Shown piece by piece: positions 16,912 to 20,951 of a stretch of 20,951 nt of DNA. Position 1 is the first letter of the stretch, and each line of letters starts with the position of its first letter. The DNA is from a virus. Under the pieces are notes generated by a model. That model ran no database searches and was not told where the DNA came from. It worked only from the letters and a program-made list of their open reading frames with translations. The DNA lies in the IMG/VR virus record IMGVR_UViG_3300035665_000281, positions 1 through 20,951 of that record; one strand, given 5' to 3'. The position numbers and the translations under genes were made by a program.

Positions 16912-18792
16912 ATGACCCTACTTGCCTCGCTACTCGCTCAGATCGGCGCCGGGCACACCCCGTGGAAGCTCGCGTGTCGCGTCGTCGCGACGTCGCCTGC
17001 CACGCTGTCGGGGCTCTACACGCTGTCGGGCGTCGCCCTCGCCGAAGGCGACCGTGTGCTCTGCACGGCGCAGGCAGCGGGCCGCGACAACGGCATCTGG
17101 CTCGCGTCTGCCAACGCCTGGACGCGTGCGCCCGACATGTCGACCTCAAGCTACGCGCAGCTCGGTACGACGGTGCGGGTGCTGGAGGGCACTGGGGCTG
17201 GCGAGTACCGTCTCGCGTCGCCGGTGACGGGCACCATCACGGTGGGGGTCACGGCGCTGACGTGGGCGTTTAGCGGTGGAGACGGCGTGCTCGACGCCGC
17301 TGGCCCCGTCACTGTTGGGTCAACGCTCGCCACGAGCGTCTCCGTCGGGCGCGCGGGCGCGCCAACGACAATCAGCGGCAGCACCATCACGGTGACGCCG
17401 GCCAACCTCGCACTCACGCTGTCGGGCGCCTACTGTCAGATCCTGAGCTCGCGCCTCGTATGCAACACAACCGGCGTCGGGAACGTCCTGGATCTCGCGC
17501 ATCCAAGCCAGGAGGTACAGATCGGCCTCGAGAAAGAGGTCAGGATCGGCCAGACGTCGGCGCCGTACCTCGGGCTGCACGACCACATGCCAGTCGAGCA
17601 GCAGAGCGCGTGGGACGTCGCCTCCCTGCTCTCCGCGCTGGCGCGGCAGGGCATCGTTCACGACTCGTCGCAAGGCTACCAAGTGGCCATCCGCGGCGAC
17701 TCTCTGTGGACGGTAGGCGCTACGACTCCGACCGCGCGAGCCTCAAGGCTGCTCGGGGACACGTTGACCGGGGCGTCCGTAGAGGACTGCTCGGAGCCTG
17801 GCGATTTCCCGCGTTCGCCGGCGCACTTCTACCGCAACGTCCCGCCGCGCAAGAAGTCGATCTTGGTCCTCATGTGGGGGATCAATTCGTTCATCGCCGG
17901 TCAGTCGGCCGCGACCGTGCAGGCCGCTACCACTGCGGAGGTAGCGGCAGCGCTCGCGGCGGGATGGGACGAGGTCATCGTGTCCACGGTGTTCCACGCT
18001 GGAACGACGGTACTCAGCGCCGGGCAGAACACGCAGCGCACGACCTACAATAGTTGGCTCCTCGCGAACTTCGGCTCGATCGGAGCGATCGCGTGCGCCG
18101 ACCCCGCCGCGAACGTCAACCTATCGAACGCGACCAACCTGACCTATTTCCTCGCCGACCAACTGCACCTCACCAATGCGGGGCACACGGTACTCGCGGG
18201 CGTGATGGCTCCCGTCGTGAGCGCTCGCCTCACGGGCCAGACGCGCGAGGACGCCACGATGCGCGGCGCGGCCGTCACGGTCGACGGCGCCTCTTCGGTG
18301 GCGCTCACGTCGGGCGGGTCGAGCTTGACCGTGAGCGCAAGCTTCTTCTCGCAGGTCATCACCACCCTCTGGATCGTGGCCTCTGACCAGTGGTTCACGC
18401 GCTCGGCGACGTCGCGACAGCACTCCGTGCGCTACGTTCCGCCGGATGTCGTAACGACGGACGCGACGGTCACGACGGCGTGGTCACTCACGACGACGGC
18501 GAATCGCGTCTATCGCGTGACGGTGCGCGCGGTGTGCAGTAACGACACGGACAACCAGGGCGGCAGTTTCGAGCCCAGGTATGCCACGTTCCGCGACGTC
18601 ACGGGCACGGTCAATCAGATCGGCACGACTGGCCCGGCCTCGCCGACGGACCACCGCGACGCGACGATCCCGGCCGCGACGGTCACGATCGACAACAGCG
18701 GAACGACGTTGCGCGCGCGGGTCACGGGGACCGTGGGCAAGACGGTTCGATGGCGTCTCATCGTGGACGTGGACGAGGTCGACCTAGCATGA
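16912..18792 (+). CDS. Tail fibre with an embedded SGNH/GDSL-type hydrolase domain
   Basis: This 626-residue protein starts at an ATG preceded by GGAGAG; the longer upstream frame overlaps the previous gene and is rejected. The N-terminal 120 residues carry the common fibre module seen as SGVALAEGDRVLCTAQAAG and GRDNGIWLASANAWTRAPD. A beta-rich linker follows, then a region with SGNH hydrolase blocks in the right order: block I GDSL (Gly262-Leu265, nucleophile Ser264), block III GIN (Gly323, Asn325) and block V DQLH (Asp416, His419) in a LADQLHLTNAGH context. The final 200 residues are Thr/Val-rich and beta. SGNH domains in phage fibres typically de-esterify surface polysaccharides. Presence of the triad is observed; activity and substrate are inferred. 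Confidence 0.8.
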   Translation: MTLLASLLAQIGAGHTPWKLACRVVATSPATLSGLYTLSGVALAEGDRVLCTAQAAGRDNGIWLASANAWTRAPDMSTSSYAQLGTTVRVLEGTGAGEYRLASPVTGTITVGVTALTWAFSGGDGVLDAAGPVTVGSTLATSVSVGRAGAPTTISGSTITVTPANLALTLSGAYCQILSSRLVCNTTGVGNVLDLAHPSQEVQIGLEKEVRIGQTSAPYLGLHDHMPVEQQSAWDVASLLSALARQGIVHDSSQGYQVAIRGDSLWTVGATTPTARASRLLGDTLTGASVEDCSEPGDFPRSPAHFYRNVPPRKKSILVLMWGINSFIAGQSAATVQAATTAEVAAALAAGWDEVIVSTVFHAGTTVLSAGQNTQRTTYNSWLLANFGSIGAIACADPAANVNLSNATNLTYFLADQLHLTNAGHTVLAGVMAPVVSARLTGQTREDATMRGAAVTVDGASSVALTSGGSSLTVSASFFSQVITTLWIVASDQWFTRSATSRQHSVRYVPPDVVTTDATVTTAWSLTTTANRVYRVTVRAVCSNDTDNQGGSFEPRYATFRDVTGTVNQIGTTGPASPTDHRDATIPAATVTIDNSGTTLRARVTGTVGKTVRWRLIVDVDEVDLA

Positions 18793-19415
18793 GCAGCCGA
18801 CTAGGACCCGACGACGACACGCCGCCCGCGGGTGTGCCCGTGCCTCGCCCGCGCTCCAGCGGCCAGACGATGGTCGGCCTCGGCGCCGTGGAGTCGCCCA
18901 CGCCTCGCAGCGACCCACCCACGACGCCGCCGCACGGCACGGACCTACGCGGAGCCGACACCAAGCTCGTATTGGAGCGGGTGGGGCTCGCCGACTCGCA
19001 CGCGGTCGATCGACTGGACAGCCTTGAGGAGAAGGTCGACGCGCTGCTCTCCGACGTGCGCCGCATCGTCGGCGACCTCCGCACGCGCGATGAGGCGCTG
19101 TTCGGGCTGCTCGGCCTACCCGGTCAGGTAGAGCAGCTCGCCCGCCGGCTGGAGGACGTGGCCCGCAGGGTCGGTGCTGTCGAGCGCGCGCCACGGGAGG
19201 GCAGCTCGCCGCAGCTCGAGGCGCTGGCGTCGCTCGCGCTCGAGGACGCGGAGACCGAGGTGCGGCGCCGTCGGGCGCAGGTCGCCGAGGACGAGCAGCG
19301 ACGGCAGCTCAGGGCGCAGAACCGCGCCCGTCTGTGGGGCTGGGTCTGGAAGATTGCGGCGGTCGTGGGGCCGCTGCTGGGCGCCGTCGTGGCGCGCGAA
19401 TGTGGAGGAGGCTGA
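18789..19415 (+). CDS. Tail-anchored coiled-coil protein (function unknown)
   Basis: This 208-residue protein starts by ATGA overlap with the fibre stop. The first 55 residues are Pro/Ser/Thr-rich and likely disordered. Residues about 60-185 are predicted long helices with clear heptads (SLEEKVDALLSDVRRIVGDL; QVEQLARRLEDVARRVGAV; then a strongly basic ALEDAETEVRRRRAQVAE segment). Near the end one hydrophobic segment (IAAVVGPLLGAVVA, about 190-203) follows a Trp-rich WGWVWK, so it looks like a single C-terminal membrane anchor. Position between fibre and lysis-type genes suggests a lysis accessory or membrane protein, but I recognise no family. It does not have the N-terminal anchor expected of a classical i-spanin. 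Confidence 0.65.
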   Translation: MSSRLGPDDDTPPAGVPVPRPRSSGQTMVGLGAVESPTPRSDPPTTPPHGTDLRGADTKLVLERVGLADSHAVDRLDSLEEKVDALLSDVRRIVGDLRTRDEALFGLLGLPGQVEQLARRLEDVARRVGAVERAPREGSSPQLEALASLALEDAETEVRRRRAQVAEDEQRRQLRAQNRARLWGWVWKIAAVVGPLLGAVVARECGGG

Positions 19416-19418
19416 GAC

Positions 19419-19640
19419 ATGGATCACGTGGTCAACAATCGGAACAGCGTCGACGAGGACATCCTGAGGTTCTTCCGCCACGAGCATCTGCCGGAGCATC
19501 TGCAGGACATGGCCCGCCTGTTCCGCGACGTGGCGGTGCACGTCGGTGGCAGCTGCCCGCCGAGCCACGAACGGACGAAGGCGCTCGACGCGCTACTCGT
19601 CGCCAAGGACGCCGCCGTGCGCGCCAAGCTGGGAGGCTGA
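19419..19640 (+). CDS. Acb2/Tad1-like small protein, candidate anti-CBASS/anti-Thoeris sponge
   Basis: This 73-residue protein has a GGAGGAGG site at 19404-19411 before its ATG and closely resembles the helical-hairpin family called Acb2/Tad1 (DUF7681). Family-like features are the short lead, ILRFFRHEHLPEHLQDMARL, the spacing to CPPSHERTKALDALL, and the closing LLVAKDAAVRAKL, close to the 'ErtvALRKLLEAKDaAVRA' end that I know from this family. Acb2 proteins form hexamers that bind cyclic di- and trinucleotides made by CBASS systems; Tad1 proteins sequester Thoeris gcADPR signals and some also cyclic nucleotides. The predicted cellular location is cytoplasm. Family call is by recalled motif, with no search run; ligand specificity cannot be told from this sequence. 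Confidence 0.72.
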   Translation: MDHVVNNRNSVDEDILRFFRHEHLPEHLQDMARLFRDVAVHVGGSCPPSHERTKALDALLVAKDAAVRAKLGG

Positions 19641-19642
19641 GC

Positions 19643-20221
19643 ATGGAACCGGAAGTCGTCACGCAGGCAGGGCAGGGCTCACACGTCGCGGGGGCAGCGC
19701 TCGCCGTCTGGGTGCTCGTCTCGGTACTCAAGTCCGACCGCGTGCCCATCAACGTACCGCCCGCCGTGCGCCCGTGGCTCGCGCTCGTGCTCGGGCAGGT
19801 CTACGCGGTGCTCTCCGCCGTCGTGCTCGGGCAGCCCTGGGGCGCTGCCGTCGTTGACGGACTGCTGGCCACCACCCTCGCCGTGACGGGGCAGGAGCTC
19901 GGCTCCTCCGTCTCCGGCCATCGACTCCCGCCGCCGCCGCCGTCGGTCCTCCCCCTCCTGCTGACGGTGGCGGCGCTCGGGGGGCTGACGTCCTGCAGCG
20001 GTGCGCAGCAGGTCACGCGGCTCGCCGAGGCTGCGCGGGACGTGGCGGTCGTCGCCGAGCCGTGCCTGGTGGAGGTGCAGCGCGCGGAGCTGCGCACCTG
20101 CGAGGGCGAGCCCGGCTGCGAGGGGCTGGTGCGCCAGCGCTGGGCACCGGTGGCGGCTGCGCTCGACGTTCTGCATGAGGCGTGGTGCGGGCTGGCTCCG
20201 GAGTCGGAGGGGTGCCCGTGA
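19643..20221 (+). CDS. Holin-like membrane protein with a lipoprotein-like C-terminal part
   Basis: This 192-residue protein starts at an ATG two bases after the previous stop, with GGGAGG at 19631-19636. Residues about 15-30, 45-63 and 67-83 are three hydrophobic segments that look like a small holin. After a His/Arg and five-proline stretch (96-100) comes another hydrophobic run ending in a textbook lipobox, LTSC, with Cys118. The remaining 74 residues are soluble-looking and hold five more cysteines. A GTG at 19883 (Val81) could start a 112-residue stand-alone lipoprotein whose lipobox Cys would be residue 38, but no Shine-Dalgarno precedes it. Alternatives: a single holin/o-spanin-like fusion, or two products from one frame. 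Lysis role is inferred from layout and topology. Confidence 0.65.
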   Translation: MEPEVVTQAGQGSHVAGAALAVWVLVSVLKSDRVPINVPPAVRPWLALVLGQVYAVLSAVVLGQPWGAAVVDGLLATTLAVTGQELGSSVSGHRLPPPPPSVLPLLLTVAALGGLTSCSGAQQVTRLAEAARDVAVVAEPCLVEVQRAELRTCEGEPGCEGLVRQRWAPVAAALDVLHEAWCGLAPESEGCP

Positions 20222-20480: not shown

Positions 20481-20686
20481 GCCAGGTCTACCTGCACGAG
20501 GTGCGGCGCCAGCTCGAAGCGCTCACGCTCGACGAGCTGCACGAAGTCTACGCCTACCTGCGCGAGGCCATCGTGCGGCGGCGCGCCATCCTCCGCGGGG
20601 CGGACGCCGACGAGCTCGAGCTCGAGCTGCCCCACCGCGACACCGACCCTGCACCGCTCGTCCTCGACGAGCCTGGAGAGCCATGA
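20477..20686 (+). CDS. Small acidic protein (unknown)
   Basis: This 69-residue protein starts by ATGA overlap at 20477. The first 40 residues are a charged helix or helix pair (RRQLEALTLDELHEVYAYLR, then EAIVRRRAILRG). The last 30 are acidic and Pro-rich (ADELELELPHRD). No membrane segment or cysteines are present. It could be a small regulator or accessory protein of the following gene, with which it overlaps by four bases (ATGA). I recognise no family. Confidence 0.55.
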   Translation: MSQVYLHEVRRQLEALTLDELHEVYAYLREAIVRRRAILRGADADELELELPHRDTDPAPLVLDEPGEP

Positions 20687-20951
20687 CGACCCCGACGAAG
20701 TGGCGCGTGATCCAGCGCAGCGCGGACGGCCTGCACGGGCTGGCGATCTACCTCGCTGGGCCGGGCGTGGACGCGGACCGGGACGGAGTCGGCGACCTCG
20801 ATGAGGCCATCGCGGCGGCGCTTCCCGGCGTGGGCGTGGTAGCCACCGTCGGCAGCGGCCTGCACGACACCGCCAACGACATGATCCGAGCGGCAGCGGC
20901 CTGCGGCGCGGCCCGTATCGACGGGCTGGCGGGGTTCAGCGCCGGGTGCCA
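20683..20951 (+). CDS. Truncated protein with GFSAG nucleophile elbow (possible alpha/beta hydrolase)
   Basis: The gene starts at 20683 by ATGA overlap and runs off the end of the window, giving 89 residues. Near residues 30-41 is DADRDGVGDLDE, which has the acidic spacing of a Ca-binding EF-hand or thrombospondin type-3 loop. At the end, GLAGFSAGC places a GxSxG-type nucleophile elbow (Ser86) after a helix (TANDMIRAAAACGAARIDG), as in alpha/beta hydrolases. Next to a lysis-type cluster, a cell-envelope esterase or LysB-like enzyme is attractive, but the rest of the catalytic triad lies outside. A general esterase or another fold with this motif remains possible. Confidence 0.5.
   Translation, partial: MTTPTKWRVIQRSADGLHGLAIYLAGPGVDADRDGVGDLDEAIAAALPGVGVVATVGSGLHDTANDMIRAAAACGAARIDGLAGFSAGC

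Follow-up and report, generated by a model that had tools for sequence, protein, structure and literature searches.

The small gene at positions 19419 to 19640 of the window, which here means the whole stretch of DNA analysed, a virus fragment of 20,951 bases, encodes a 73-residue protein of the PHROG 1761/5120 family. Profile comparisons place this family on a sister branch, remotely related to the Acb2/Tad1 hairpin family (Pfam PF24729), and the window protein is not an Acb2. Acb2 is used by some phages to soak up bacterial alarm molecules, and the best guess by homology, a tentative one, is that the window protein acts as an oligomeric sponge for a nucleotide immune signal. Homology alone is no proof of sponge activity, and helical hairpins are common. 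The family has a predicted hairpin fold and no fixed partner gene, and the window copy has diverged at residues that are near-invariant in its relatives.

Gene and genomic setting

The window contains Mu-like head and tail genes, identified by Pfam as Portal_Mu, Mu-like_Pro, Mu-like_gpT, a DUF2586 protein and Baseplate_J. The original prediction placed the gene at the end of a Mu-like late operon; the Mu-like character is borne out by these assignments, but the end position is not, because the record stops at position 20951 with the operon still running. The proposed location between fibre and lysis-type genes holds as far as gene order is concerned, with a 208-residue gene product intervening after the fibre, while the downstream 'lysis-type' genes encode putative membrane proteins lacking a Pfam match. 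Neither of the two genes that adjoin the hairpin gene has a Pfam match above cut-off, and the products of both look membrane-associated (Table 1).

Several further features of the surrounding genes were noted. The product of the gene directly downstream has an inner stretch, LTSC, that resembles a lipobox and might mean that two lysis-type products are fused or overlap here. The fibre-like protein (16912-18792) contains GDS, WGIN and DQLHLT, which by eye are typical of an SGNH/GDSL esterase domain. The truncated ORF at 20683-20951 carries GFSAG, resembling the nucleophile-elbow motif of alpha/beta hydrolases, and its 89 residues gave no Pfam match. No close phage relatives of the window were found by way of its baseplate gene and an adjoining gene.

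The ORF of 73 codons on the plus strand, with the C-terminal end ...ERTKALDALLVAKDAAVRAKLGG, is a genuine gene. Its reading as a real coding sequence follows from a strong ribosome-binding site, a coding composition with a GC content of 0.74/0.38/0.88 at the three codon positions, a composition-based gene caller that picks exactly this ORF along with the remaining genes of the operon, and more than 300 homologous phage records. The extent originally given for the 73-residue frame is thereby confirmed.

Table 1. Coordinates in the window of the hairpin gene, its neighbours and the predicted elements of its product
Feature	Position	Strand	Basis or remark
Upstream neighbour, 208 aa, coiled-coil-like stretch and C-terminal hydrophobic segment	18789..19415	+	sequence; sub-threshold Pfam match only
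Shine-Dalgarno-like GGAGGAGG	19404..19411	+	7 nt 5' of ATG; just before stop of upstream gene (19413-19415)
73-aa predicted helical-hairpin protein, PHROG 1761/5120 family	19419..19640	+	ATG 19419, TGA 19638-19640
Predicted helix 1, residues 6-19, start less confident	19434..19475	+	AlphaFold2 model
Predicted helix 2, residues 26-45, hairpin arm 1	19494..19553	+	AlphaFold2; HHalign pairs it with PF24729 helix 2
Predicted hairpin turn CPPS, residues 46-49	19554..19565	+	matches CPxS of PF24729 clade
Predicted helix 3, residues 50-72, family signature ERTxAL..LL.AKDAAVRA	19566..19634	+	AlphaFold2, alignment
Residues 57-61, DALLV in place of RKLLE of almost all family members	19587..19601	+	family alignment
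Downstream neighbour, 192-aa putative membrane protein, holin-like by appearance	19643..20221	+	sequence; no Pfam match

The PHROG 1761/5120 family

Residues 7-71 of the window protein match PHROG 1761 (E 6.8e-19) and PHROG 5120 (E 4.9e-9), two profiles to which no function is assigned and which are both matched by all 35 viral members. The PHROG 1761 profile spans 148 positions, and the hairpin domain corresponds only to its C-terminal half. With the window protein as tblastn query 37 phage records were retrieved, and with other family members as queries 302-338; a scan of viral contigs added 87 relatives and a scan of bacterial genomes 65, and a plasmid collection contained no match. Members occur in phages and prophages of Alphaproteobacteria, Vibrio, Acinetobacter, Erwinia, Actinobacteria, Planctomycetes and Myxococcota, and many are proteins of 60-70 residues from cultured phages of Gordonia, Acinetobacter, Vibrio, Brevibacterium and Dinoroseobacter. 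Their consensus reads ILQFFxYxHLPxHLQEVSxPFxxLAxxIxxxLPRNPERTVALRKLLEAKDAAVRAKL. The records inspected are annotated 'hypothetical' nearly throughout, and a literature search by family names found neither a paper describing the family nor an experiment on any member.

The domain appears in several modified forms. In Erwinia phage pEa_SNUABM_36 (L160, 3758-4186) it is fused C-terminally to a P-loop domain of about 75 residues (GPVGVGKS); in 47 phage records at least 80% of the fusion is covered, and those listed at full length all belong to Erwinia jumbo phages. In Ochrobactrum phage vB_OspP_OH (L336, 765-1133) it lies behind a Cys-rich segment resembling the zinc fingers of DnaJ and anti-TRAP. 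Gp70 of Mycobacterium phage Apex (L339, 738-977) and gp94 of prophi79-1 (L340, 654-917) retain a GLRKLLEA(K/R)DCF helix and have a quite different N-terminal half, the latter gene being flanked by genes for a ParB-like nuclease and a nucleotidyltransferase. An insertion of roughly 13-17 residues near the hairpin turn is present in the homologue of Myxococcus phage Mx4 (L156, 7001-7213) and at loci L131 and L138.

Among the Brevibacterium AGM-type phages, 21 of 32 records have an exact in-frame tandem duplication of 51 bp in the homologue (ETLPDGPEKSTALRKLL twice), and 11 are without it. The duplication, as for example in Brevibacterium phage AGM9 (L356, 392-637), spans the hairpin turn and the start of helix 3 and might alter or switch off the protein; the selection against Acb2 by the Panoptes defence is offered as a comparison.

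Remote kinship with PF24729

A search with the Acb2/Tad1 profile gave a negative answer for the window protein itself: it has no Pfam match, and PF24729 was absent at E <= 1 for this protein and for the 35 aligned viral members. PADLOC and NCBIfam yielded nothing relevant for the window protein, and a PDB sequence search returned nothing beyond designed helical repeats and further helical matches due to chance. Elsewhere in the family, matches to PF24729 were found below its curated cut-off of 27 bits, with E values of 0.0014 and 0.0045 for two actinobacterial members and 0.035 for a member from a Nitrospira MAG (best 19.3 bits). The member of Brevibacterium phage AGM16 matched PF24729 with an E value of 8.4e-4.

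Stronger signals came from one clade of PF24729, defined by a YHPP sequence near the start of its proteins, of which 35 out of 35 tested match PF24729 at E <= 0.01 (best 5.7e-26). HHalign aligned the PHROG 1761/5120 family with this YHPP clade at a probability of 89-93 and a score of 33-37, compared with 15.2 for the best of the controls, which consisted of 40 column-shuffled profiles and one reversed profile per comparison. When repeated with other alignments, the same comparison gave a probability of 72 and an E value of 3.4e-5. An HMM of the YHPP clade gave the window protein 10.2 bits, more than any of approximately 1,540 composition-matched shuffled or reversed decoys (best 9.0), with a family median of 9.7 bits versus -1.0. 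In the opposite direction, the PHROG 1761 profile matched 21 of 42 contigs carrying PF24729 proteins at E <= 0.01 (best 5.8e-7) and 0 of 14 control genomes; its two best matches coincide in coordinates with the PF24729 gene of their contigs. PHROG 1454 is common to 29 of the 35 family members (best 5e-4) and T4 Acb2 (7e-4). With a PF24729 set that lacked the YHPP clade and in which 'VRHxYRVL' and T4/PaMx-like sequences predominated, HHalign did no better than with the reversed profile.

These comparisons indicate that the PHROG 1761/5120 family and one clade of PF24729 very probably share a remote common ancestry. The initial assignment to the Acb2/Tad1 family therefore survives as remote kinship, supported by controlled profile comparisons and by the predicted architecture, but not as an identification with either Acb2 or Tad1. 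The ERTKAL...AKDAAVRAKL sequence, originally taken for an Acb2/Tad1 motif, turned out to be a signature of the sister family and not of Acb2. The label that the evidence carries is 'Acb2/Tad1-hairpin-related protein, PHROG 1761 family', while acb2 or tad1 as a gene name is unsupported.

A mutually exclusive distribution, with the family taking the place of Acb2, is untenable, as the viral contig G317 (L352, L022) encodes both one family member and a separate PF24729 (Acb2/Tad1 hairpin) protein above cut-off.

Predicted fold

AlphaFold2 models the window protein with a mean pLDDT of 87 and a pTM of 0.71 as a short helix followed by a helical hairpin (helices 6-19, 26-45 and 50-72), in support of the hairpin pattern anticipated from the sequence. 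The model of a PF24729 protein of the YHPP clade (helices 4-10, 20-41 and 46-69) has the same order of helices and a CPxS turn between helices 2 and 3. In a Foldseek search of a viral structure library, 'Acb2/Tad1 hairpin domain-containing' proteins were the first known-family names after the own family, with probabilities of 0.3-0.91. Against the PDB, the PF24729 model found T4 Acb2 (7uq2) with a probability of 0.99, while no Acb2 chain was among the matches listed for the window model. VIA-align comparison of the window model with the PDB likewise listed generic helical bundles, with Z up to 7.6, and no Acb2. Judged from the models, the resemblance to Acb2 is one of architecture, with differences in detail.

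Gene neighbourhoods across the family

Both neighbours lie on the strand of the family gene in 125 of 150 loci, and within two genes on either side terminases, capsids, head-tail adaptors, endolysins, tail sheath, ParB-like proteins and others are encountered. A conserved neighbour gene was considered and rejected, as no PHROG recurs more than three times among the approximately 130 neighbours per side. The pattern is as expected of a stand-alone accessory gene, because the neighbours vary without a fixed partner.

Individual phages illustrate this variety and bear on two structural or lytic roles. The gene is located directly 3' of the holin gene in Brevibacterium AGM16, just 5' of lysin A in Gordonia Puppers and just 5' of a putative endolysin gene in Myxococcus phage Mx4. 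Together with the membrane-protein genes that follow it in the window and a few endolysin families among upstream neighbours, these positions would fit an accessory of the lysis cassette that influences the timing of holin or endolysin. Such a role is nonetheless highly unlikely, since the protein has no membrane helix and the gene lies far from lysis genes in many phages: within the head region in Acinetobacter R3177, amid DNA and nucleotide metabolism genes in DFL12phi1, next to topoisomerase and rIIA in Acinetobacter phage 133, and adjoining baseplate genes in Dickeya JA33. In Sulfitobacter AX, too, nucleotide metabolism genes surround it. The proximity to capsid or baseplate genes in some phages and the predominant co-direction with neighbours could also indicate a small virion or assembly protein, which is very improbable as well, because the gene has no fixed place in the head and tail gene order and is found in early or metabolic regions elsewhere. 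The same distribution bears on the earlier suggestion that late expression serves to stockpile a quencher of immune signals, for which no evidence emerged here, homologues being found equally in head, tail, lysis and DNA-metabolism regions.

Conserved residues and divergence of the window copy

The near-invariant set of the family comprises F19, H23, L24, E51, R57, K58, E61, K63, D64, V67 and R68. Because the scans were seeded with KDAAVRAK (both scans) and ALRKLLE (genome scan only), conservation is inflated at those sites in the respective sets; the conservation of R57, K58 and E61 in the viral set is unseeded. Among 121 non-redundant sequences, R57 is present in 119, K58 in 116 and E61 in 119.

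The window protein retains most of this set, including H23, K63, D64 and R68, and carries the changes R57D, K58A and E61V; each of D57, A58 and V61 is unique, or nearly so, among the 121 sequences. P34L and V54K occur in addition, and the full combination is seen in no other of the 121 members. By this alignment the window copy is a divergent member that has lost three near-invariant residues, and it may have changed its ligand or lost its activity. The unique combination would be compatible with decay of the window copy within a family in which intact members act as sponges, an unlikely explanation given that the gene retains an intact reading frame, ribosome-binding site and codon bias and encodes an unaltered KDAAVRAK. 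K54 lies one helical turn before A58, where its gain may or may not be a compensation; if it were one, it would speak against decay.

The pocket tyrosine of Acb2, its lysine/arginine and its EAxMW signature, in place of which stands EAKDA, are not retained. At the column of the pocket tyrosine the window protein has H21, and the family has Y in 73, F in 30, H in 7 and W in 5 of 121 sequences. The basic residue of Acb2 helix 2, an invariant R28 in the YHPP clade, aligns with a family column of V/T/I/A and with M in the window protein, in a register made uncertain by a nearby gap. The helix-3 signature T.L.EA.MW of Acb2 is absent, the family having RKLLEAKDA and the window protein DALLVAKDA. A signal would probably not be bound in the manner of Acb2, because the known pocket residues of Acb2 are replaced by a different near-invariant set.

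Helix 3 carries near-invariant charged residues that are peculiar to this branch and unlike those of Acb2, which would also fit a hairpin that shares ancestry with Acb2 and serves as a small protein-binding module; such a module might, for example, block or recruit a protein of the host or of the phage via the RK..E.KD...R face of helix 3. The persistence of the motif in Apex gp70 and prophi79-1 gp94 despite their different N-terminal half, and the fusion proteins in which the module is joined to a P-loop domain (Erwinia jumbo phages) or a Cys-rich zinc-finger-like domain (an Ochrobactrum phage) point in the same direction. We consider this rather unlikely, as a ligand pocket would equally be expected to conserve a small charged set and no conserved partner gene was seen.

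Putative function as a nucleotide sponge

If the window protein is an oligomeric sponge, several copies of the hairpin would assemble into an oligomer, which would hold a nucleotide immune signal in pockets between its subunits, as Acb2 does; with the signal held, the host effector would stay off, resulting in counter-defence. It is conceivable, if doubtful, that PHROG 1761/5120 as a whole represents a large, so far unrecognised class of sponges that bind an immune nucleotide other than those of Acb2 in a different pocket (H, RK..E.KD...R), and that the window copy has been re-specialised.

Should the family bind immune signals, several hundred phage genes annotated as 'hypothetical' would become candidate counter-defence genes, and the difference in conserved residues would implicate a signal or defence system outside those of Acb2, Tad1 and Tad2. 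Even if it does not bind signals, the family constitutes a clear, compact and testable target.

Comparison with Acb2, Tad1 and related proteins

Tad1 contains an N-terminal antiparallel beta-sheet (PMC12043709). The likeness to Tad1 is limited to the helical-hairpin part and to the family name, while no strand is predicted in the window protein, which has only 73 residues. An identity with Tad1 was ruled out by the lack of a beta-sheet domain in the AlphaFold2 model.

Acb2 assembles as a hexamer, in which cyclic dinucleotides are bound between protomers and cyclic trinucleotides where trimers meet (PMC12043709, PMC10419184), and binding by T4 Acb2 needs Tyr8, while Phe82 stacks on the bound nucleotide (PMC12657218). 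The Acb2 proteins of T4 (Vs.4) and of Pseudomonas phages (p26) (PDB 7uq2, 8h2j) share with the window protein a helical hairpin of similar size, and T4 Acb2 additionally shares PHROG 1454. They differ in that there is no significant direct profile match and that Tyr8 and Phe82 of T4 Acb2 are not retained.

The YHPP clade, for example gp101 of Mycobacterium phage Xandras, resembles the window protein in the predicted short N-terminal helix plus hairpin, the CPxS.E turn and a conserved E/A/L/E/A spacing in helix 3. In contrast to the invariant Y, R and EEAVMWAN of this clade, the PHROG 1761/5120 family has Y/F/H, no aligned R and LLEAKDAAVRA. With the PHROG 1761/5120 proteins, finally, the window protein shares the same motif and a match over nearly its whole length, the window copy being without R57, K58 and E61.
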